Below, one piece after another: positions 4,354 to 15,053 of a stretch of DNA of 64,000 nt. Position 1 is the first letter of the stretch. Each line of letters opens with the position of its first letter. Made by a program: the position numbers and the translations under genes. The notes beneath the pieces are model-generated. The model searched no databases. It was not told the DNA's origin and saw nothing but the letters and a program-made list of their open reading frames with translations. The stretch is from Euzebya tangerina (GTDB lineage Bacteria; Actinomycetota; Nitriliruptoria; Euzebyales; Euzebyaceae): assembly GCF_003074135.1 (NCBI RefSeq), contig NZ_PPDK01000001.1, positions 3,381,265 through 3,445,264 on the forward strand, read 5' to 3'.

Positions 4354-4368
4354 TCCGGGGGCCGCTCT

Positions 4369-4637
4369 ACTCCCGGTACACGGTCGCTGATCCGGGGCCC
4401 GCTCTACTTTCGGTACACGGTCTCGCCGGCCCACTCTCGGTACACGATCTCATCGGCCCACTTTCGGTACACGATCTCGCCGGCCCACTCTCGGTACACG
4501 ATCTCATCGGCCCCACTTTCGGTACGCAAGTGGCGGCGGCTCACGGCTCGGTGTGCTGAGAGTTCTCCCTGAGCCGCACCCTTCGAACTCTGGGAACACG
4601 CTGTGAGACGAGCAGCCGCCTGTCGTGTACCGAAAGT
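4369..4637. repeat. Left repeat array beside AbiEi/DUF559-like gene (ACTYTCGGTACACG family)
   Basis: This fills the gap between the glycosyltransferase and the AbiEi-like gene. Forward copies of ACTYTCGGTACACG begin at 4369, 4406, 4433, 4460, 4487 and 4515; the middle ones lie in a strict 27-28 bp tandem whose flanks alternate between CTCGCCGGCCC and CTCATCGGCCC. More diverged copies follow at 4551 (reverse), 4587 (forward) and 4625 (reverse, GTGTACCGAAAGT). No open reading frame or RNA gene was recognised here. Because the whole unit repeats, without unique spacers, this is not a CRISPR array. The same motif recurs on the other side of the gene. Confidence 0.85.
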
Positions 4638-4680
4638 CCTCGTCACCCCTGCCCGTCCGCTAGGTGGGGTGTGGGGTGCG

Positions 4681-5679
4681 CTACCCCGTCGGAGCCAACG
4701 TGTGGAGGTCGGTACGCCGAAGCTCGGACGCAGGGAGTGCCGGACAGACGAGTTCGCCTTTGAGGATCTGCTGTTCCCTCCAACGCCGGACTCCGTGGAT
4801 GAACTCAGCCAGGCCAGCTGGATCTTGGAGCATGGACTTCGTGACGACGATCACTCGGTACCCAAGGCGCTCGAGTGCGTAGCGTCGGGAGGCGTCCCGA
4901 TCCGCCGAACCGTCATGGGGGCTTCCGTCGTACTCGATGATCAAGCCCGCGGAGAGGAAGACGAAGTCCACCCGGAGCTTCCCGTGAACGGTGACCTGAC
5001 AGTCGGGCAGGGGCGGGAACGGCTCGAACACCTCGCGGAACAGTCGTCGTTCGCCCTCGCTCTCCTGGTTGAACGCCCCGGAGGACCAGAAGTCCAGCAG
5101 CCGTTTCGCTCCTGCTCCGGGGAGACTTCGCCAGTGCTCCACCGCCTCCTCGAGGCGAAGCACTCGCGCGCTGCGCAACGAGTCGACCGCTGAGCGGACC
5201 GCGGGGTCTGACAGTTGGCCGGGCAGCGCCGCGTCCGCCAACGCCCGGGCAGGACTCGCGAGCGGTAGCCCTCGGACTCGCCAGACATCTACGTCGTCCA
5301 TGCGGACCCTCCGGGGTCGGTACACCTCCGGCGCGGTGCGTGGACTTCGAGAACGGTCCACCAGGACCAGGGGTCTCATCGGAAGGGTGAAGCCGGCCGC
5401 GTCGAAGAGTGCCAGAGCGGCCCCGCCGGTGATCGCGACCGCATCCTTGCCCTCAACAGCTCGCTGGGAGAGGTAGCGGACCGGAACGTGGAGGCACTGA
5501 TCAGGTGGGCGGCGACCCTGAGCCAATCGGTAGATGCCGTGCAGGAGCCGCTCGGTGTCTCCGTCATGGGCCCACGAGGCCGCCACGAGTCGATTGACCC
5601 CCACCCGTCTCAGCTGTGCGGCGGAGAGGATGCGGCCGGGATCGGCCTTGAATGCGTCGATGACGTGCTTTGGAATCAT
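4681..5679 (-). CDS. AbiEi-antitoxin-like protein with C-terminal DUF559/Vsr-like nuclease domain
   Basis: A 332-residue protein. The N-terminal ~60 residues look like the winged-helix of type IV AbiEi-family antitoxins (ILSAAQLRRVGVNRLVAASWA followed by a LLHGIYRLA wing). The middle resembles the AbiEi C-terminal region (ITGGAALALFDAAG, SPARALADAAL). The last ~120 residues carry a PD-(D/E)xK-like core: an acidic residue in SEGERRLFRE, RVDFVF, then IIEYDG and a conserved YALERLGYRVIVVT strand. No AbiEii toxin partner lies next to it, so it is an orphan. Such solo genes are frequent in actinobacteria and their function is not established. What stands out here is the pair of flanking repeat arrays, which suggests the protein and repeats form a unit; a role in binding or cutting them is inference. 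Confidence 0.75.
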   Translation of the reverse strand: MIPKHVIDAFKADPGRILSAAQLRRVGVNRLVAASWAHDGDTERLLHGIYRLAQGRRPPDQCLHVPVRYLSQRAVEGKDAVAITGGAALALFDAAGFTLPMRPLVLVDRSRSPRTAPEVYRPRRVRMDDVDVWRVRGLPLASPARALADAALPGQLSDPAVRSAVDSLRSARVLRLEEAVEHWRSLPGAGAKRLLDFWSSGAFNQESEGERRLFREVFEPFPPLPDCQVTVHGKLRVDFVFLSAGLIIEYDGSPHDGSADRDASRRYALERLGYRVIVVTKSMLQDPAGLAEFIHGVRRWREQQILKGELVCPALPASELRRTDLHTLAPTG

Positions 5680-5789
5680 GCTGTCAGGGTGCGCGATCGC
5701 AGGCGACGTCCGAGGCGCCCTGTGGACAACCTGTGAATAACCGAGCCCACGCGGTCGCCGCAGGCGTTCTGGCGACTTGGCCCCATCTG

Positions 5790-6049
5790 ACTCTCAGTAC
5801 ACGATTCGACCCCACTCGCGCCCTGCCCGTGCACCCAGAGTCACAGATGAGCAGGTCAGAGGGGCCCTCTCGGTACAGGCACCGGTGATGTTGCAGACGT
5901 GGTGCACCGAGAGTCGGCAGCACGGCCACGATGTACCGAGAGTCGGCCCTGAAGGCCGCGATGTACTCAGAGTCGGCCACGGCGCACCGAAAGTCGGCAG
6001 CACGGCCAGTACCCAGAGTTGGCCCCGAAGACCACCGTGTACCGAGAGT
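5790..6049. repeat. Right repeat array upstream of the AbiEi/DUF559-like gene
   Basis: The 397-base gap between the AbiEi-like start and the SCO6745-like stop holds about nine more copies of the left-array motif. They are forward at 5790 and 5866 and reverse (GTGTACCGAGAGTCGGC type) at 5829, 5902, 5931, 5961, 5982, 6008 and 6037, spaced 21-39 bp. Most copies are inverted relative to the left array, so the gene lies between two arrays facing each other. Copies are more diverged than on the left. No other feature was seen in the gap. Confidence 0.8.
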
Positions 6050-6076
6050 CGGGATCAGGGCCCGGAGTGGACCGGC

Positions 6077-6928
6077 TCAGCCAGGCCGGCTGGGCAGCGG
6101 ATACGGACGGGGGTAGGCCTCCCCCTCGTTCAAGGCCGCCGCCAAGGGAGCGAGCAGGTCCCACAGCCGGAGCGAGTCCTCCTCCCCCAGCGCAGCCCAC
6201 GGCCGGGACGCGAGTTGGTCGGTCCGCTGTTCGATCTCCTCGCGTAGTGCCCGCCCGGCGTCGGTCAGACCATCGCCGTCGTGCAGAGCCCGGGCCTGCA
6301 GGGCCGCCACGGCGGCACCCCACGCCTCGTCGTCCCAGAAGCGCGACTTCTGCAGGAAGCGCTGTGACACCCGGTCCTGCCACCCCGTATAGAGAACCAG
6401 GGCCTCGACGGCCCCGACCCCCTCCCCCACCAGGGCGGCGATGTGCCCGTCGCCGCGGTACTCCCGCAGCATCGTCACCCGTTGGAAGAGGTCCGCGAAC
6501 GGCGTACCCGGCAACTCGACACCCGCATTGGCGGCCGCCAGCGGTCGGCCTTCGAAGCTGCAGGCGGCCACGGCTCGCCCGGCCAACTCGGTTGCCTCCT
6601 CCAGTCCATCCGTCGGTGCGTCCACCCGCTCATACACCGCCTCGATTCCCGCGGCGCGGGCGGTCAGCAGATCATCCGGCGAGGCCACGGACCACGTCGC
6701 GGGCAGCGCCTGCTGGAAGAGCAACGGGTTGAAGTTGTAGAAGGTCGCCGCTGCCACCTCCGGTCCCACGGGCCCCATCGGCGCTGCCCGACCGGCGATG
6801 TACCCCTGCCCGCGGGGCTCGAGTCCCATCACGGCGTACCGCTCCTGCACCTCCGCCGCGAAGTAGAGGATGGCGTGGACGGGTTCGATGACACCGTGCA
6901 TGGCACGGGCCAGCTCTGCGGGGGTCAC
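6077..6928 (-). CDS. SCO6745-family protein of unknown function
   Basis: A 283-residue soluble, mainly helical protein. The start (ARAMHGVIEPVHAILYFAAEV), the GYIAGRAAPMGPV segment and the FYNFNPLLFQQALP segment match the actinobacterial SCO6745-like family, which is annotated only as hypothetical (SalK-like). No signal peptide or membrane helix is visible. It lies 30 bp downstream of pafA on the same strand and could be the last gene of the proteasome-region transcript, but no functional link is known. Confidence 0.7.
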   Translation of the reverse strand: MTPAELARAMHGVIEPVHAILYFAAEVQERYAVMGLEPRGQGYIAGRAAPMGPVGPEVAAATFYNFNPLLFQQALPATWSVASPDDLLTARAAGIEAVYERVDAPTDGLEEATELAGRAVAACSFEGRPLAAANAGVELPGTPFADLFQRVTMLREYRGDGHIAALVGEGVGAVEALVLYTGWQDRVSQRFLQKSRFWDDEAWGAAVAALQARALHDGDGLTDAGRALREEIEQRTDQLASRPWAALGEEDSLRLWDLLAPLAAALNEGEAYPRPYPLPSRPG

Positions 6929-6957
6929 AGTGGCTCCTCAGATGGTGATGACTCGAC

Positions 6958-8313
6958 TCACATCGAGTTGATCAGCTTGGCGACCCGCTCGTCGGAGGAC
7001 TGGAACGGGTCCTTGCAGAGCACCGTCCGCTGCGCCTGGTCGTTCAGCTTCAGGTGCACCCAGTCCACGGTGAAGTCCCGCCGTTTTGCCTTGGCCTGCC
7101 GGATGAAGTCACCCCGGAGCTTCGCACGCGTGGTCTGTGGCGGCATGGACATCGCGGTGGAGATCTCGTGATCGTCCGTGACCCGGTCCACCTTGTTGTT
7201 CCGCTGGAGGACGTAGTACAGGCCCCTGCTGGTGTTCACGTCATGGAACTGCAGGTCGAGCATTGCGATCTTGGGATCCGACAGCTCCAACCCACGCTTG
7301 GTGCGGTAGTCCTGGATCAGCTGGTACTTGGTGACCCAGTCGACCTCTCTGGACAGCTTGAGCGGGTCGTCGGACAGCGTGTCCAGGATCCGACCCCACT
7401 CGGCCAGGACGTGGTCGGTCTCGGGATCCGACCCGGTGGACTGCACGAATTGGCTGACCCGCGCGTGGTACTCCCGCTGGATCTGCAGCGCCGACATCTC
7501 GCGCCCGCCCGCGAGCTTCACGCGGCGGCGACAGGTCATGTCGTGGGAGATCTCACGGATGGCCCGGATGGGGTTGTCGAGCGATAGGTCGCGCATCACC
7601 GCCCCCGACTCGATCATCCGCAGCACCAGGTCACAGGTCGCGACCTTCAACCAGGTGGTGTACTCCCCCATGTTGGAGTCGCCGACGATCACGTGGAGGC
7701 GGCGGAACCGCTCGGCGTCGGCGTGTGGCTCGTCGCGGGAGTTGATGATTGGGCGCGACCGCGTCGTGGCGGAGGACAACCCCTCCCAGATGTGCTCCGC
7801 GCGCTGGGAGATCGAGTAGACCGCGCCGCGGGGCGTCTGCAGGACCTTGCCGGCCCCGGCGAAGATCTGGCGGCTGACCAGGAACGGAATCAGCGTGTCG
7901 GCGAGCTTCTGGAACTCGCCGAAGCGGGCGACGAGGTAGTTCTCATGGCTGCCGTAGGAGTTCCCCGCGGAGTCGGTGTTGTTCTTGAAGAGGTAGATGG
8001 TTCCGGCGATCCCCTCCTCGTGCAGCCGCTCCTCCGCCTGGGCGACGAGCCCCTCGAGGATCCGCTCGCCGGCCTTGTCGTGGGCGACAACGGAGCGGAC
8101 GGTGTCGCACTCGGCCGTTGCGTACTCGGGGTGGGATCCGACATCGAGGTACAGGCGTGCACCGTTCTCGAGGAAGACGTTCGAGCTTCGACCCCATGAG
8201 ACGACGCGGCGGAAGAGGTACCGGGCGACCTCGTCGGGTGAGAGCCGCCGCTGTCCGCGGAACGTGCAGGTGACGCCGTACTCGCACTCGATGCCGAAGA
8301 TCCGACGGTGCAT
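6958..8313 (-). CDS. pafA: Pup--protein ligase
   Basis: PafA couples the C-terminal glutamate of the ubiquitin-like protein Pup to substrate lysines, using ATP, and so marks proteins for the proteasome. The 451-residue sequence starts with [11 protein letters not shown], the glutamine-synthetase-like ATP-binding motif, and has the conserved [42 protein letters not shown] and DMTCRRR segments. Length matches the family. In the common actinobacterial order pafA follows prcA; here a Ser/Thr kinase lies between them. Dop, its paralogue and antagonist, is encoded about 4 kb upstream. Confidence 0.96.
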
Positions 8314-8355
8314 GAGGGGAGAGGTCCTGACGTCGCTGCGGGTGGTGAGGAGATC

Positions 8356-10404
8356 CTACTGGCTGGGTGTCGGACTTGGCGTCGGCGTGGGCGTCGCCTC
8401 GGGGAGGATGAAGAAGGTGTCGAGCACCGTCTGCAAGGCGGCGTCGTCGCGAGGCTCGAGGCCTTGGAACTGCACCAGGAGGATGGTGTCCTGCTCCGGT
8501 GGTTCTGCGGCCACGATCACGTAATCAGCATCGGTGGCGCCGCAGTTGATGTAGTCATCACGGAATCCGGTGTAGGCCTGGTCCTCGTACGGGGTCCGAC
8601 CGGTGTACTCGCACTGGTTGGAGAAGTCGAGAGCGTCCAGGACCGCATTCGGGTCGAGGTTCGCTCGAAGTTGCTCGCTGACACCGAAGATGACGCCGGG
8701 CTCGGCCCAGGTGGTCCGGAACCGCTCCAGGTCGGTTGACGCCTCGATCTGCTGCCCGACCGGCTCGTCGTTGATGATCCAGGGACCGCCGTTCACGTCG
8801 GACCATGGCCGCGGCACGTCGACGGTGATGGCATCGGTGTCGTCGCGCAGCCGTTCGAACGCGGCGTACTCGGGGGCTGGCTCCGCGGTGGGCTCCTCGG
8901 TGACGGGGTCCGGATCACGGGTCTCTGCCGGCATCAGCGGCGCGGCCGGTGTCGTCTGGGTTGCCGGCGGGGTCGTGACCTCGGGCGCCGTGGTGACCTC
9001 GGGAGGGGTCGGATCACCCGCTACCACCGGGGTCGGATCATCATCGGGTTCGTCGTCCCCGCCAGCGAGGAAGAAGAGGCCCCCGATGATCACGATCGCG
9101 ACCGCTCCGACGCCCGCCAGGATCTTGGGGAGCGCGGAGGACTGGGCCGGTGGGGGTGGCTGGGCGGTTCGATTGCCGAAGGCGCCTTGTTGCGGGACGT
9201 AGCCCGCCGGTCCCGACGCGTACTGCGGCTGGTGCTGGCGTGGTTGGACGGCCGCTGGCTGGTGGGGCCCAGGGCCCTGGGCGCCAGGCGAGGTTGGCGT
9301 GCCGGGGCCCGGTGGGCGGGTGCCGGCGCCGGCCGCGGACCAGCCGGGCGGCGGCGCTTGATCGGCCGGTGGCGGCGAGGGTTGCGGTGGCGCGTGTTGC
9401 GGTGGCTGGCCCTTCGGTCCGATGTCGGTGGTGCCACGCTGATCGGCGCCGGCTCGCAGCGCGCTGATGCCCTCGATCGAGCGGGCGATGTCATCGGAGT
9501 GGATGGTCCGGGTCGACTCGCGAACCGCTGCGGCTTCGTCCTCTCGGACGGGCAACGGCGTCACCGGGTGTCCCATCCGCGTCTGCGCGTCACGGATGGC
9601 GTGCCCCATCTGGGCTGCCGAGCCGAAGCGCTGATCTTGCCGCTTGGCCATGGCTCGTTCAACCAGGGCGGCCACGTCGTCGGGGATGCCCTTGGCCCGC
9701 AGGTCGGGAACCGGGTCGTCCTTGATCCGGCTGAGCGCCGGCACGATCGACTGGTCCGTCGAGTGGACGAACGCCGCCTCGCCGATCAACAGCTTGTACA
9801 TCGTGGACCCGAGTGCGTACAGGTCGGTGGCCGCGTCCGGGGGCTTGGCCTCCAGCAACTCAGGCGCCACGTGTTCGATCGAGGCGGTGAGGCTGGAGGT
9901 CTGGGTCTCAGGCCCGCCCTTGAGGCGGGCGATGCCGAAGTCACCCAGCTTGGGCTCGCCGTACCCGCTGACCAGGATGTTCTCGGGCTTCAGGTCCCGA
10001 TGGAGGATGCCGGCTTGGTGCGCCGTCTCGAGTGCCCCGCAGACCTTGACCATCATGGTCAACACCTCGGCCGGGGGGATCGCCCCCGTCTTCTCCAGCC
10101 GGTCGCCCAAGGAGCCGCGCTCCATGAAGTCCATCAGGATGTAGGGCTTGCCCTGCTCGGTGAAGCCCGAGTCGTACACCGTGACGATGTTGGGGTGTCC
10201 CGAGAGCATCCCCATCGCCTGGATCTCCCGCTCGAAGCGGATGCGGACCTTGCGGTCCTTCACGGTGTTGGTGACGACCTTGACGGCCACGTCGCGGCGC
10301 AGTGACTCCTGCCGGGCCTTGTAGACCGTGCCGAACCCGCCTTCACCGACGACGACCGCGTCGGTGAGGTCGTCTATGCCCAGCTCTACAACGTCGTCAC
10401 TCAT
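8356..10404 (-). CDS. Membrane Ser/Thr protein kinase (PknB type)
   Basis: A 682-residue Hanks-type kinase. Residues ~12-275 are the kinase domain: GEGGFGTVYKA loop, VAVKVV lysine, HRDLKPEN catalytic loop, GDFGIA, then an activation loop rich in Ser/Thr. A 150-residue Pro/Gln-rich linker leads to one membrane helix at about residues 426-447. A Pro/Thr-rich stalk and an extracellular domain of roughly 150 residues with two Cys (NQCEYTG, YINCGATD) follow; it is not a PASTA array. It sits between prcA and pafA in the same direction, 24 bp from prcA. Control of proteasome or pupylation proteins by phosphorylation would be a natural hypothesis but is not shown by the sequence. Confidence 0.88.
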   Translation of the reverse strand: MSDDVVELGIDDLTDAVVVGEGGFGTVYKARQESLRRDVAVKVVTNTVKDRKVRIRFEREIQAMGMLSGHPNIVTVYDSGFTEQGKPYILMDFMERGSLGDRLEKTGAIPPAEVLTMMVKVCGALETAHQAGILHRDLKPENILVSGYGEPKLGDFGIARLKGGPETQTSSLTASIEHVAPELLEAKPPDAATDLYALGSTMYKLLIGEAAFVHSTDQSIVPALSRIKDDPVPDLRAKGIPDDVAALVERAMAKRQDQRFGSAAQMGHAIRDAQTRMGHPVTPLPVREDEAAAVRESTRTIHSDDIARSIEGISALRAGADQRGTTDIGPKGQPPQHAPPQPSPPPADQAPPPGWSAAGAGTRPPGPGTPTSPGAQGPGPHQPAAVQPRQHQPQYASGPAGYVPQQGAFGNRTAQPPPPAQSSALPKILAGVGAVAIVIIGGLFFLAGGDDEPDDDPTPVVAGDPTPPEVTTAPEVTTPPATQTTPAAPLMPAETRDPDPVTEEPTAEPAPEYAAFERLRDDTDAITVDVPRPWSDVNGGPWIINDEPVGQQIEASTDLERFRTTWAEPGVIFGVSEQLRANLDPNAVLDALDFSNQCEYTGRTPYEDQAYTGFRDDYINCGATDADYVIVAAEPPEQDTILLVQFQGLEPRDDAALQTVLDTFFILPEATPTPTPSPTPSQ

Positions 10405-10428
10405 GGCTGCTCACCCAGCCTACCGAGG

Positions 10429-11109
10429 TCACTCTGCGTCGAGGAGCTCCGCAACGCCGCGCTCATCCAATCGAAAGAACTTCCGCCGTCCCAGCGACCG
10501 GTCAAGACCCGCCACCTCCAGCCGGTCGGCGTCCATCGTCCGCTCCTCGACCTGCTCCAGAGCGGCCACCGTGGTGCGGAGCGCCGCAGCCCGGTCCATG
10601 TCGGGCTGGTAGGTCTGGCCCAGCGCCTCGTTGATCGCCTCGGCGCGGCCACCGATGGCGACGAAGCTGTCCTCGTCGGTGATCGAGCCGTCGAACAGGA
10701 TGTGGTACAGCTCGACGTGCTCGGCGGCGACCTCGGCGACGACCAGCTCCACCTCCAGCGGCTTGGGTGAGTCGGTGAACGTCGCCCCCATGGCGTTGGC
10801 GTAGGCGTTGGCCAGCGCCCGACCGGTCACGTCTTGCCGGGAGTACTGGTAGCCCTTCACGTCTGCCAGCCGGATGCCGGCGACGCGCAGCTGCTCAAAC
10901 TCGTTGTACTTACCGACGGCGGCGAAGGCGATGCAGTCGTAGATCTCGCTGACCTTGTGCAGCGTGGCGGAGGGGTTCTCGGCGACGAACAGGACCCCAC
11001 TGGCGGTGGTCAGCGCCACGACGGACCGGCCGCGACTGATGCCCTTGCGGGCGAAGTCGGCCTTGTCCTTCATCGCCTGCTCGGGCGAGACGTAGGGCAT
11101 CATCGGCAT
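10429..11109 (-). CDS. prcA: Proteasome subunit alpha
   Basis: The 226-residue alpha subunit forms the outer, gating rings of the 20S core particle. The YVSPEQAMKDKADFARKGI start, SRGRSVVAL and the SEIYDCIAFAAVGKYNE segment are typical of actinobacterial PrcA. The ATG at 11109 has an AAGGA ribosome site eight bases upstream. The protein ends in RGVAELLDAE. It directly follows prcB. Confidence 0.96.
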   Translation of the reverse strand: MPMMPYVSPEQAMKDKADFARKGISRGRSVVALTTASGVLFVAENPSATLHKVSEIYDCIAFAAVGKYNEFEQLRVAGIRLADVKGYQYSRQDVTGRALANAYANAMGATFTDSPKPLEVELVVAEVAAEHVELYHILFDGSITDEDSFVAIGGRAEAINEALGQTYQPDMDRAAALRTTVAALEQVEERTMDADRLEVAGLDRSLGRRKFFRLDERGVAELLDAE

Positions 11110-11153
11110 GTCGTGGGTCCTTGCGGGTTGGTGGTCGCGGGTGAGTCAAGCAC

Positions 11154-11996
11154 TCAGGCGGGCGCGTCGGGGCGGGGGTTGCGGTCGGCGATGGCGGACC
11201 CGGCCGACAACCGGTCGCCCCGGGCGTCGGCCACCTGACGGGCGCGCTCGGCCACCTCGTCCTCCTCACGCTCGGCGTATCCGTCGGCGTCGATCTGGGC
11301 GACGATCGGGTAGAGGCCGCGAACGGTGTCGGGTCCACCGGTGGCGGAGTCCTCGTCGGCCGCATCCCACAGGGCCGATATGGTCAGGTCGACGGCCTCA
11401 TCGGCGCCCATGCCGCGTTCCCAACGGGCCTTCAACGATGCGCGGGCGTGCAGTCCTCCCGAGCCGGTCGCCGAGAACCGGCGCTCCTCATACCGGCCGC
11501 CGGCCACGTCGAAGTCGAAGATCCGGCCCACCTCGGAGCGGCGGTCGTAGCCCGCGAAAAGCGGGACGATGACCAGACCCTGCATGGCCATCGGGAGGTT
11601 GCCGCGGACCATGCTCGCCAGCTTGTTGGCCTTGCCCTCCAGTGACAGCTCGCTGCCCTCGACCTTCTCATAGTGCTCGAGCTCCGTGGCGAACACCTTG
11701 GCCAGTTCGATCGCCGGGCCGGCTGAGCCGGAGATCCCGACCGCCGACACGCGGTCGGTCTGGAAGATCTTGCGCATGTCCCGCTTGGAGATCAGGTTGC
11801 CGGCGGTCGCCCGACGGTCACCGGCGATCACCACACCACCCTCGTAGACCGCGGCGACGATCGTCGTGCCCTCGACGTGCGGGAGGTGACCAGCCGGCTC
11901 ACCGGGCCAGTCGAGTGGGGAGATCCGGCGGATCAGGTCGCTGAAGGATGAGCCGGAGTAGTCGAACGGATCGGTGCGGGCCAGCCGGTCGGTCAT
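11154..11996 (-). CDS. prcB: Proteasome subunit beta (catalytic)
   Basis: The catalytic subunit of the 20S core, made as a 280-residue precursor. A 43-residue propeptide ends in HVEG, and autocleavage would expose Thr44 of TTIVAAVYEGG as the nucleophile. GDRRATAGNLIS (with the conserved Asp) and the lysine in KIFQTDRVSAVGISGSAGP complete the active site; GSGGLHARASLK is also conserved. It is located between pup and prcA in the usual order. Confidence 0.96.
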   Translation of the reverse strand: MTDRLARTDPFDYSGSSFSDLIRRISPLDWPGEPAGHLPHVEGTTIVAAVYEGGVVIAGDRRATAGNLISKRDMRKIFQTDRVSAVGISGSAGPAIELAKVFATELEHYEKVEGSELSLEGKANKLASMVRGNLPMAMQGLVIVPLFAGYDRRSEVGRIFDFDVAGGRYEERRFSATGSGGLHARASLKARWERGMGADEAVDLTISALWDAADEDSATGGPDTVRGLYPIVAQIDADGYAEREEDEVAERARQVADARGDRLSAGSAIADRNPRPDAPA

Positions 11997-12024
11997 AGAT
12001 GCCGAACGCTACCGCCGGGTTGAA

Positions 12025-12213
12025 CTACTCGCCGCCCTTCTGGACGTAGTTCTTGACGAACTCCTCGGCGTTCTCCTCGAGCACACCATCGATCTCATCG
12101 AGCAGGTCATCGACGTCGGAGGTGTCGACTTCGGGGCTCTCGCTGTCGACCGTGGCGTCCTGCTCCTCGGTCTGCTTGCCCTTCTGCTTGCGGACCTGAC
12201 CGCCGTCGCTCAT
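12025..12213 (-). CDS. pup: Prokaryotic ubiquitin-like protein Pup
   Basis: A 62-residue, mostly disordered acidic protein that is the covalent tag of the system. It ends in NYVQKGGE, that is with a C-terminal Gly-Gly-Glu: the glutamate form is directly usable by PafA, so Dop deamidation is not required for activation here (many actinobacterial Pups end in GGQ). The segment VDDLLDEIDGVLEENAEEFV is the helix that engages Mpa. A strong GAGGAG ribosome site precedes the ATG. Confidence 0.97.
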   Translation of the reverse strand: MSDGGQVRKQKGKQTEEQDATVDSESPEVDTSDVDDLLDEIDGVLEENAEEFVKNYVQKGGE

Positions 12214-12251
12214 GGGGTCTCCTCTGCGTCGTCGTCTGCTACACGACCAGT

Positions 12252-13751
12252 CTAGCCGCGGAGCCGGTCCAGGAGGTCTCTTGCCGTGTCGGCGTTGTCG
12301 ATCAGTTCACCCACCATGGCCTCGGTCCCACGGGTCGGGTCCATCATGGGGACGCGCTGGAGGGTCTCCCCGCCGACGTCGAAGATCATCGAGTCCCAGC
12401 CTGCGGCAGTCACGTTGTCGCGGTACTTCTCGAGGCAGCGACCGCGGAAGTAGGCGCGGGTATCGCGGGGTGGGTTGGCGATCGCGTGCTGGACGTCGTC
12501 CTCGCTGACCATGGTCTCGACCCGGCCGGTGGCGACGAGGCGGTTGTACAGGCCCTTGTCGCGCCGGACATCGGAGTACTGGATGTCGATCAGCTTGAGC
12601 TTCTGGTCGTCCCAGTTCAGGCCGTCCCGCTCGACGTAGCGCTGCATGATCCGGTACTTCGTGACCCAGTCGACCACGCCGTCCAGGCTCATGGGGTCGT
12701 CCTCGATGGCGGTGATGAGGCGGTCCCAGACCGACAGGACCTCATTCGCCCAGTCGGGGGCGTCGTGGCTCGCGACCCACTTCTGGGCCCACTCGAGGTA
12801 ATGCCACTGCAGTTCCATGGGTCGGACCTTGCGGCCGTCGACCAGACTGACCGTCTTGCGGCACGTGAGGTCGTGGGAGACGGCGTGCAGCGTCGTGACC
12901 GGACTCGAGATGGCCGGGGCGGCGGGGAGGAACCCGTCCTCGATCATCCCGAGGACCAGCGCGGTCTGACCAACCTTGAGGAAGGTGCAGATCTCGCTCA
13001 TGTTGGCGTCGCCGATGATCACGTGGAGGCGGCGGAAGCGGTCGGGGTCGGCGTGCGGCTCGTCGCGGGTGTTGATGATTGGCCGCTTGAGGGTCGTCTC
13101 CAGCCCGACCTCCACTTCGAAGAAGTCGGCACGCTGGGTGACCTGGTAGTCGACCTCCGCGCCGGGGAACTCGGTGCCGACACGGCCCGCCCCCACGAGG
13201 GCCTGGCGGGTGATGAACAGCGGGGTGAGCTGCCGGACGATCTCGCCGAACGGCGTCTCCCGGGCGACGATGTAGTTCTCGTGCATCCCGTAGGCGGCAC
13301 CCTTGCCATCGGTGTTGTTCTTGGTGATCAGGATCCGGCCGGGGTTGGCGTGGTCGTGGCCGGGGATGAGCGGGGCGGCCTTCTCGGCGGCGATCTCGAG
13401 GACCCGCTCACCGGCTTTGTCCCAGATGACGGCATCCCGCGGGTTGGTGACCTCGGGGGAGGAGTACTCCGGGTGGGCGTGGTCGACGTAGAACCGGGCG
13501 CCGTTGGTTAGGATCGAGTTGGCCAGCCCGATGTCGTCGTCGAGGGCTGGATCGTGGGCGTCCTGCTGGGTGTAGCCGCGGGCGTCCTGGAGGGGGTCTT
13601 CGTCCTCGTAGTCCCACTTGGCCCGGCTGCGGCCGTCGGCGTTGTAGGCGTTGACGACCAGTGATGAGGCCAGCACCGGGTTGAACTCGGGCCGCCCGAT
13701 GACGGAGATGCCGAACTCGGTCTCGATGCCGATGGTTGGGGGGAGGGCCAT
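12252..13751 (-). CDS. dop: Depupylase / Pup deamidase
   Basis: Dop removes Pup from substrates and, where Pup ends in Gln, deamidates it. The 499-residue protein shares the glutamine-synthetase-like fold with PafA (GIETEFGISV start, [49 protein letters not shown]). The Dop-specific loop after residue 40 (YEDEDPLQDARGYTQ) separates it from PafA. Because this genome's Pup already ends in Glu, depupylation is the likely main role. It is upstream of pup on the same strand. Confidence 0.95.
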   Translation of the reverse strand: MALPPTIGIETEFGISVIGRPEFNPVLASSLVVNAYNADGRSRAKWDYEDEDPLQDARGYTQQDAHDPALDDDIGLANSILTNGARFYVDHAHPEYSSPEVTNPRDAVIWDKAGERVLEIAAEKAAPLIPGHDHANPGRILITKNNTDGKGAAYGMHENYIVARETPFGEIVRQLTPLFITRQALVGAGRVGTEFPGAEVDYQVTQRADFFEVEVGLETTLKRPIINTRDEPHADPDRFRRLHVIIGDANMSEICTFLKVGQTALVLGMIEDGFLPAAPAISSPVTTLHAVSHDLTCRKTVSLVDGRKVRPMELQWHYLEWAQKWVASHDAPDWANEVLSVWDRLITAIEDDPMSLDGVVDWVTKYRIMQRYVERDGLNWDDQKLKLIDIQYSDVRRDKGLYNRLVATGRVETMVSEDDVQHAIANPPRDTRAYFRGRCLEKYRDNVTAAGWDSMIFDVGGETLQRVPMMDPTRGTEAMVGELIDNADTARDLLDRLRG

Positions 13752-13784
13752 AGATCGAGCCTACCGGCGCCCTGTGCCATTCCG

Positions 13785-13896
13785 GGTGTGTCGGCTCTGC
13801 GTGGGCCTCCACGCGGACCCGACACAGCTCCCATCGACTGGCCCGGCCACGGGGTGTGTCATGTCTGAGCGCCTGCGCACGCTGACCTGACACGCC
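13785..13896. repeat. Two palindromic elements left of the second AbiEi-like gene (GGTGTGTC family)
   Basis: Element A spans about 13785-13828: outer arms TGTGTCGG and CCGACACA, inner arms GCGTGG and CCACGC around a GCCT loop. Element B spans 13853-13896: outer arms GGTGTGTCA and TGACACGCC, with a short inner AGCG/CGCT stem. Both are nested hairpins of about 45 bp in the gap between dop and the AbiEi-like gene. Two relatives lie on the other side of that gene; the family differs in sequence from the arrays near 4.5 and 5.9 kb. Confidence 0.75.
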
Positions 13897-13985
13897 CACG
13901 ACTCGACACGACTTCGTCAACGGGTTGTCCACAGATCGGCAGAGAAAGCTCTCGCCGAGCCGCCCACATCCGGGACTCTGCTGCT

Positions 13986-14897
13986 GTGAACAAGGCTGAG
14001 CGAGACACGGTTGACCGACTCATGCGAACGCACCGCGGCGTGATCACACCTGAGGTGGCGCGTCGTGGTGGCCTGACGCGACACAAGCTCGTGAACGCGC
14101 ACGTTTCAGGCGAACTCGTCCGGGTCCGGCACCGCGTCTACACGACCAGGGGCGCGATAGTCAACTGGGACGACGAGCTCTTCGCCGACCTCGAGGCCTG
14201 CTGGCGCAACGCCTACGCCTCGCACTCCGCTGCTCTGGCGCTCCATGGGCTGCGACACCAGGAGCTCCCGCTTCGGCGAGAGCTCGTCGTCCACGGGAGT
14301 GCCCGTCCAACCGTCGCACAGAACGTGGTGGTCCACCGGACTCGCCGCCTCGAACGCTTCGACCTCACGAAGATCAACGGGATCCCGTGCACGACGGTGG
14401 AGCGGGCGCTCATCGATGTCGCAGGACGGCTGTCGGAGCGGGCGCGCCTCGAGCTGATGGACGATGCAGTGATGAAGGGCTTGGCTGACCGAGACCTGCT
14501 GCACGGCCGGTGCCTCGACCTCGTCAGTGGGCGTTCTGGCGTCAGAACGCTGCTGGAGGCAACTCGACCCGGGGCTGAGCTGGCATTCAAGTCCAGCTTG
14601 GAGAAGGCGGGCCTCGAGCTGCTTCACCGGGCGGGGGTGCGGGACATGCGCATCAACGTGATCCCCGAACGAGCGCCCGCCGCGGGGGTCACGGATGTGG
14701 TGTCGGAGACCGATCGACTGATCGTGGACTGGGACGGTCTGCGCTTCCACAGCTCCCGCCGTGCGCGCGAGCGCGACAACGAGAAGTCCAACCAGTGCGC
14801 TCTTGCCGGCTATACGTTGCTGCGTTTCACCTGGAACCACGTTCACCATCAGCCGGTCTACGTGATCGACCTGGCGCGGCGGACGGTGGATGCCTGA
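13986..14897 (+). CDS. AbiEi-like protein with DUF559/Vsr-like C-terminal domain (second copy)
   Basis: A 303-residue protein starting at GTG 13986, with the same architecture as the 4681-5679 gene. The N-terminal winged-helix contains RGVITPEVARRGGLTRHKLV; the central region contains YASHSAALALHGL and PCTTVERALIDVAG; the C-terminal domain resembles a PD-(D/E)xK nuclease. In the nuclease core the usual ExD is replaced by IVDWDG (Glu to Asp), while the upstream Asp (VTDVV) and the YTLLRFTW strand remain. Activity is therefore uncertain. It is orphan, faces opposite to the surrounding proteasome genes, and lies between two pairs of palindromic elements, which marks it as an insertion between dop and mpa. 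Confidence 0.72.
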   Translation: MNKAERDTVDRLMRTHRGVITPEVARRGGLTRHKLVNAHVSGELVRVRHRVYTTRGAIVNWDDELFADLEACWRNAYASHSAALALHGLRHQELPLRRELVVHGSARPTVAQNVVVHRTRRLERFDLTKINGIPCTTVERALIDVAGRLSERARLELMDDAVMKGLADRDLLHGRCLDLVSGRSGVRTLLEATRPGAELAFKSSLEKAGLELLHRAGVRDMRINVIPERAPAAGVTDVVSETDRLIVDWDGLRFHSSRRARERDNEKSNQCALAGYTLLRFTWNHVHHQPVYVIDLARRTVDA

Positions 14898-15053
14898 GGT
14901 GCCGGGCCCCATTCGAGAGGTGCCGGGCCCCCATTCGAGGTGTGTCGTCTCGGCGTGACAGCACACTCGGAGATGACACACCTGGGGCGTTTCACCAGCC
15001 AGCAGCGGAGGTGTGTCGGACGTTGGCGTGACAGCACGCGGAGTCGACACACC
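14896..15053. repeat. Direct repeats and two palindromic elements right of the second AbiEi-like gene
   Basis: Two direct repeats GAGGTGCCGGGCCCC(C)ATTCG (14896-14916 and 14917-14938) overlap or follow the stop codon. Element C (14938-14983) has 14-bp arms AGGTGTGTCGTCTC and GAGATGACACACCT with one mismatch. Element D (15010-15053) has arms GGTGTGTCG and CGACACACC and an inner stem GCGTG/CACGC closed by an ACAG loop. C and D share the core GGCGTGACAGCAC. They match the two elements on the other side of the gene in architecture and outer arm sequence. Confidence 0.78.

Follow-up and report, generated by a model that had tools for sequence, protein, structure and literature searches.

A 64-kb window of the Euzebya tangerina genome (the whole stretch analysed here, 64,000 nucleotides (nt) of contig NZ_PPDK01000001.1) contains two genes for predicted nucleases, each of which is bracketed by short inverted repeats. 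Gene A (4681-5679, minus strand) encodes a protein of 332 amino acids with an N-terminal half predicted to be AbiEi-like and a C-terminal half predicted to be a DUF559/Vsr-type nuclease, and gene B (13986-14897, plus strand) encodes 303 amino acids with the same predicted two-part architecture. Repeat A, counted as ACTYTCGGTACACG at up to three mismatches, forms a left cluster of nine copies (4369-4637) and a right cluster of eight (5790-6049), close to the nine or so per side given by the initial annotation; neither cluster is assigned to a strand, the outermost copies of both point inwards, and eight further copies lie elsewhere in the window. Gene B is flanked by four strandless 44-nt elements with GGTGTGTC arms. 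The left outer (13785-13828) and left inner (13853-13896) elements each have one imperfect arm, while in the right inner (14939-14982) and right outer (15010-15053) elements both arms equal GGTGTGTC. Two palindromes per side had been claimed, and two there are; they are not nested, as was also claimed, but form tandem pairs, 68 and 71 nt apart.

In a Pfam search the proteins match PF04480 (DUF559) with 36.6 bits for protein A and 26.6 bits for protein B, besides a weak match to AbiEi. Structure models of both match AbiEi in the antitoxin-like part and Vsr/I-Bth0305I of the EDxHD type in the nuclease part, the AbiEi-type antitoxin fold and the EDxHD catalytic fold both being present in the models. 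Residues E206, D238 and H255 of protein A are invariant and D262 almost so, and E206, D237, H255 and D264 of protein B are invariant, though their positions were not matched one by one to those of 3r3p. The two reading frames are intact and lie amid ordinary genes, and no intron or intein was noticed at either locus, where no tool-based search for them was made. Protein A has no match among phages and protein B none among plasmids.

Both repeats are dispersed through the genome. At up to one mismatch, ACTYTCGGTACAC occurs 62 times in 4.78 Mb, against three times for a reversed-pattern control. When all 62 places were retrieved and copies called at up to two mismatches, with genes taken from a simple in-house caller, repeat A resolved into 14 clusters of at least two copies, two of which are the brackets of gene A. 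Inward orientation holds in 14 of 14 clusters, and all 77 clustered copies lie outside called genes. Adjacent convergent pairs show a regular half-site spacing (36-39 nt in 15 of 19); conservation is confined to the 13-nt word, and the spacers between copies are random. Singletons occupy four places; three of these lie within genes, carry one mismatch and are probably chance matches. At one place in the same genome (L010:3000-4714, contig C1 near 2166400-2168100) two repeat A clusters flank a two-gene unit which by eye resembles ArsR and a low-molecular-weight phosphatase. This was considered as a second cognate bracket and rejected: these are two ordinary dispersed clusters, and the enclosed genes are unrelated to the DUF559 family, so that dispersed clusters may bracket other genes by chance.

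The genome has 10 repeat B palindromes with full 8-nt arms and 14 with 7-nt arms, with none for the control in either case. Two of the ten full-arm elements lie at gene B; among the other eight, seven are outside called genes, no more than 20 nt behind a stop codon, and one lies inside a called frame. The claim that each gene is bracketed by a private repeat family thus holds as to the bracketing and the different repeat for each gene, but not as to confinement to the brackets.

Bracketing extends to homologues. Among 66 genomes of the class, which is probably Nitriliruptoria to judge by names such as Euzebya and Egibacteraceae among the matches of a protein search, protein A finds matches in 23 and protein B in 55, and the loci retrieved are a subset of the matches listed. 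Each locus with at least 300 nt per side was scored by the best ungapped match, in either orientation, between its left and right flanks, and mismatched controls combined left and right flanks of different loci. The first set comprised 59 loci (L031-L089) less L046, which gave no tblastn hit, and less 14 with under 300 nt on one side. Of the resulting 44 loci, 35 scored at or above the 95% level of the 528 controls and 31 at or above the 99% level, and 19 surpassed even the highest control. Adding 18 loci (L029, L030 and 16 chosen from the match tables with their flanks still unseen), 12 of which score at least 20, and gene B of the window gave an enlarged set of 63; here a locus-specific left/right repeat scores above 95% of mismatched controls in 50 and above 99% in 44, bearing out the enrichment around homologues that the initial annotation proposed to look for. 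One of 756 controls reached 140, a score exceeded by no locus, and is attributed to related loci with common sequence. Window gene A itself scores 15 because the repeat A word is short, which indicates that the score overlooks true cases.

The repeat words differ by locus, for instance ACTCTCGGTGCACC (L032), CACGGATCGACTCCG (L054), GACGGATTCGCCTCA (L033), GGATCTTGACCCA (L034), CTCAGATCTGAG (L125) and ACGCATGCGTGAC (L030). Where the match is clear (44 loci), the distance from the stop codon to the start of the downstream repeat is at most 5 nt in 12 cases and at most 20 nt in 20. Repeated inverted 8-mers occur on both sides at 50 of 71 loci, as against 10 of 86 control genes. In a blind control of 90 other genes, taken from the retrieved parts of the bacterium's own genome, the two top scores (53 and 40) turned out to belong to its two remaining PF04480 genes; the remaining 88 all score 26 or less, with five reaching 17 and one reaching 20. 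The same genome has a fifth relative, L055, with a score of 31. A contig scan of named relatives yielded only two distant loci.

Several individual loci deserve mention in their own right. The flanks of L039, L044, L051 and L057, A-like homologues from one family of the class, carry hairpin-like repeats with a GGAT loop and differing stems (e.g. GAACGCGCggatGCGCGCGTTC), which suggests compensatory change between loci. L145 and L146, short DUF559-only genes of two same-genus genomes, carry an inverted repeat resembling CCCCTCCCTTGAGGGGAGGGG on either side, with a score just under the control maximum. At L061 and L062, where G022 and G023 have their B homologues, the left-hand genes are the same (efp and nusB by eye) but the right-hand neighbours and repeat words differ.

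The pattern seems not to be restricted to one class, although the sample on this point is small. PF04480 matches were present in 29 of 60 genomes sampled across the phylum, and 22 of 28 loci outside the class were kept, six being dropped for short flanks or very long frames. Among these, 6 of 15 frames of AbiEi-DUF559 length score above the maximum of 220 mismatched controls, compared with none of seven short or other frames.

The repeats occur together with close homologues of their genes. The exact repeat A word ACTYTCGGTRCAC is found in two of the 66 class genomes, 28 times in G000 and nine times in G024, and these are the two that have protein A at 55% identity or more; the homologue in G024 (55%) is sited elsewhere than gene A of the window and accompanied by a variant repeat. 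The word is absent from G022 and G023 of the same genus, where the A homologues (34% and 33% identity) are accompanied by other repeats. Likewise, CACGGATYGACTYCG occurs 37 times in G024, once each in five other genomes and never in 60, and GAACCACYGGATACGGGGGTT, at up to one mismatch, occurs 20 times in G045, chiefly as doublets 61-73 nt apart, and in none of the 65 other genomes. Abundance tracks the cognate gene for repeat A and for the L054 and L039 families. Repeat B, searched as GTGTGTCN20-40GACACAC, is present 5-20 times in seven genomes, once in six and never in 53, and six of the seven rich genomes have a B homologue of at least 34% identity. The seventh, G024 (best B homologue 26% identical), has five nearly perfect 43-nt palindromes with GTGTGTCGG arms (C6:54224, C26:26283, C29:28776, C38:37421 and C66:30725), for which a cognate gene was not identified. 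Three families show a tight link between repeat and homologue, and B a looser one.

The site of gene A is empty in the sister genome G024, a check for empty sites having been proposed by the initial annotation. The genes flanking gene A have orthologues there (71% and 54% identity) that are adjacent, with 29 nt between their stop codons as against 1,723 nt in the window, and the site contains no repeat. The absent block (4354-6076, no strand assigned) comprises both repeat A clusters together with gene A. G022 and G023 lack this gene order and are uninformative on the site. Two of 21 dispersed sites could be matched in 1.13 Mb of G024, both without a repeat: a 295-nt gap with six copies of repeat A corresponds to 20 nt, and an 89-nt gap with a repeat B palindrome corresponds to 29 nt.

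Enzymes with a private dispersed repeat family have a standard example in the transposases associated with repetitive extragenic palindromic (REP) sequences, the REP-associated tyrosine transposases (RAYTs). We consider it somewhat more probable than otherwise that genes A and B come from a predicted nuclease family in which most of the members examined are bracketed by their own inverted-repeat family, each protein likely binding its repeats through the AbiEi-like half and nicking or cutting there, so that repeats would spread between genes as RAYTs are thought to do. The brackets, the scatter and the near-absence of repeats from relatives without a close enzyme together make it likely that each enzyme recognises a repeat of its own, which it may also spread. 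Binding by the AbiEi-like half would follow the precedent of published AbiEi proteins; nicking or cutting by the nuclease half is suggested by the conserved acidic and histidine residues on a modelled Vsr/I-Bth0305I-like fold; and spread between genes would account for the co-occurrence and the empty sites, both read from sequence comparison. Copying of a fixed long element was considered and set aside, as the repeat A spacers are random; spreading through cutting and repair at short sites, or the decay of old copies to bound sites, would fit better.

The initial annotation had likened the layout to that of REP sequences and RAYTs, and the bracketing, the separate repeat for each gene, the intergenic dispersal, the co-occurrence with a close homologue (looser for B) and the empty sister site uphold the comparison. 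It had also named repeats away from such genes, or no enrichment around homologues, as grounds against it. Repeats away from the nuclease genes are literally present, but they are what a REP-like family predicts, and the REP-like reading is still supported; a lack of enrichment is not what we find. In the literature on REPs, REPINs and RAYTs this layout is described for an HUH transposase: an enzyme gene between short inverted repeats on both sides, each enzyme with its own repeat, intergenic dispersal often as doublets or clusters, and repeat numbers that track gene presence (PMC2817692, PMC3116915, PMC3733652). The present systems differ in that the GTAG/CGTC tag is found neither in the repeat A consensus nor in the repeat B arms, in that copies are fewer (the families counted have between 9 and 62 per genome) and in that repeat A spacers are not conserved. 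Their logic is that of REP and RAYT, but the enzyme is an AbiEi-like and Vsr/EDxHD-type predicted nuclease and not the HUH/Y1 transposase by which the RAYT family is defined.

Each half of the proteins has its own precedent. The AbiEi antitoxins of type IV AbiE toxin-antitoxin systems (Streptococcus agalactiae 6y8q; Rv2827c, 1zel) share the fold over the first two thirds of the protein, and according to PMC7319586 AbiEi and Rv2827c autoregulate through inverted-repeat binding; the half-site spacing of Rv2827c is similar to that seen here. In contrast to these antitoxins, A and B carry an extra nuclease domain, no AbiEii (DUF1814) toxin gene is among the direct neighbours at these two loci, and the repeats lie on both sides of the gene and genome-wide, beyond the promoter. 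The EDxHD homing endonuclease I-Bth0305I and Vsr share the fold of the nuclease part, and the conserved residues would be compatible with theirs, whereas A and B have a predicted AbiEi-like DNA-binding half and, unlike homing endonucleases, are paired with many short dispersed repeats instead of one homing site. No description of an AbiEi/DUF559/Vsr-type nuclease paired with repeats was found in searches of the open-access literature, nor was one known to the initial annotation.

A number of observations weigh against repeat-spreading nucleases. No clear shared repeat is present at 13 of the 63 class loci. G024 has five repeat B palindromes with a best B homologue of 26% identity, while several genomes with B homologues of 34-36% (among them G002, G003, G007 and G018) have none. 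On the proposed covariation of repeats with the N-terminal domain there was no useful signal: repeat similarity between loci has a rank correlation (rho) of 0.07 overall with protein identity, and the N-terminal part predicts it no better than the rest, in a comparison confounded by shared neighbour genes. Locus pairs scoring at least 20 number 29 of 142 at 40% protein identity or more and 49 of 2486 below, the former group being inflated by shared neighbour genes. Among six sets, covariation between repeat arms reaches significance in one, G012 (5 of 2000 shuffles), in a count that left out seven elements of G022, four identical G023 copies and a G000 element differing in length; a first impression of it in G023 was not upheld by the count, and G012 alone holds. 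With its spacers unconserved, repeat A would not have spread as a single long element that is copied and pasted. Finally, the empty sites come from a comparison of two genomes, which cannot tell gain from loss and is compatible with either.

The possibility that counts most against a spreading enzyme is that of operator arrays, in which an AbiEi-type regulator binds the repeats at its own and at target genes, the nuclease domain has another role or is inert, and nothing is mobilised. We regard this as possible but unlikely. Autoregulation by AbiEi and Rv2827c provides a model for it, and conservation of repeat A in the 13-nt word only, with regular half-site spacing, is as expected of binding sites; yet the repeats also lie downstream of the genes, in 12 of 44 loci immediately behind the stop codon, the dispersed repeat B elements likewise follow stop codons in seven of eight cases and are not at gene starts, and gene A with both clusters is present or absent as a whole block. 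Alternatively, the repeats might be older and spread by something else, with the nuclease gene a homing-type parasite inserting into them, as the modelled resemblance of the nuclease half to a homing endonuclease would allow. This we hold improbable, since the orthologous site in G024 is without any repeat, which means that gene A did not enter an ancient cluster common to both genomes, and since each gene has its own word and the repeat and its close homologue occur together. That ordinary intergenic palindromes (terminators, RNA hairpins or the REPs of an ordinary RAYT elsewhere in the genome) lie near these genes by chance is very improbable and already disfavoured, because the repeat differs for each gene in step with its close homologue, such bracketing is rare at other genes of the genome, and Rfam gives no match over the repeats (one sub-threshold match lies elsewhere), even though repeat B is palindromic and often close behind a stop codon, and even though an ordinary RAYT could be the source, no search of the genome for Y1/HUH proteins having been made, a point that also bears on the nuclease reading.

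As to the surroundings, the direct neighbours of gene A encode a glycosyltransferase and an HTH_67 protein, and those of gene B a Pup_ligase protein and a peptidase S51. Judged by eye, both genes lie in or beside a Pup-proteasome region, with Pup_ligase-family genes at 6958-8313 and 12252-13751 between them.

A broader interpretation, which we put forward tentatively and at slightly less than even confidence, is that the REP-RAYT strategy was invented a second time, independently. AbiEi-Vsr nucleases would then serve as the enzymes in a large group of repeat systems of actinobacteria. Each nuclease would write and maintain a private family of paired inverted sites throughout the genome, and dozens of such families, unrelated to one another, would have a similar half-site geometry in common. 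If true, the same layout in another enzyme class that is not homologous to RAYTs would make the pairing of enzyme and repeat a recurrent route to intergenic palindromes in bacteria. Many DUF559/AbiEi orphans now taken as defence genes or unknowns would gain a suggested function, and the systems would provide natural pairs of protein and motif from which the sequence choice of this DNA-binding fold may be learned.

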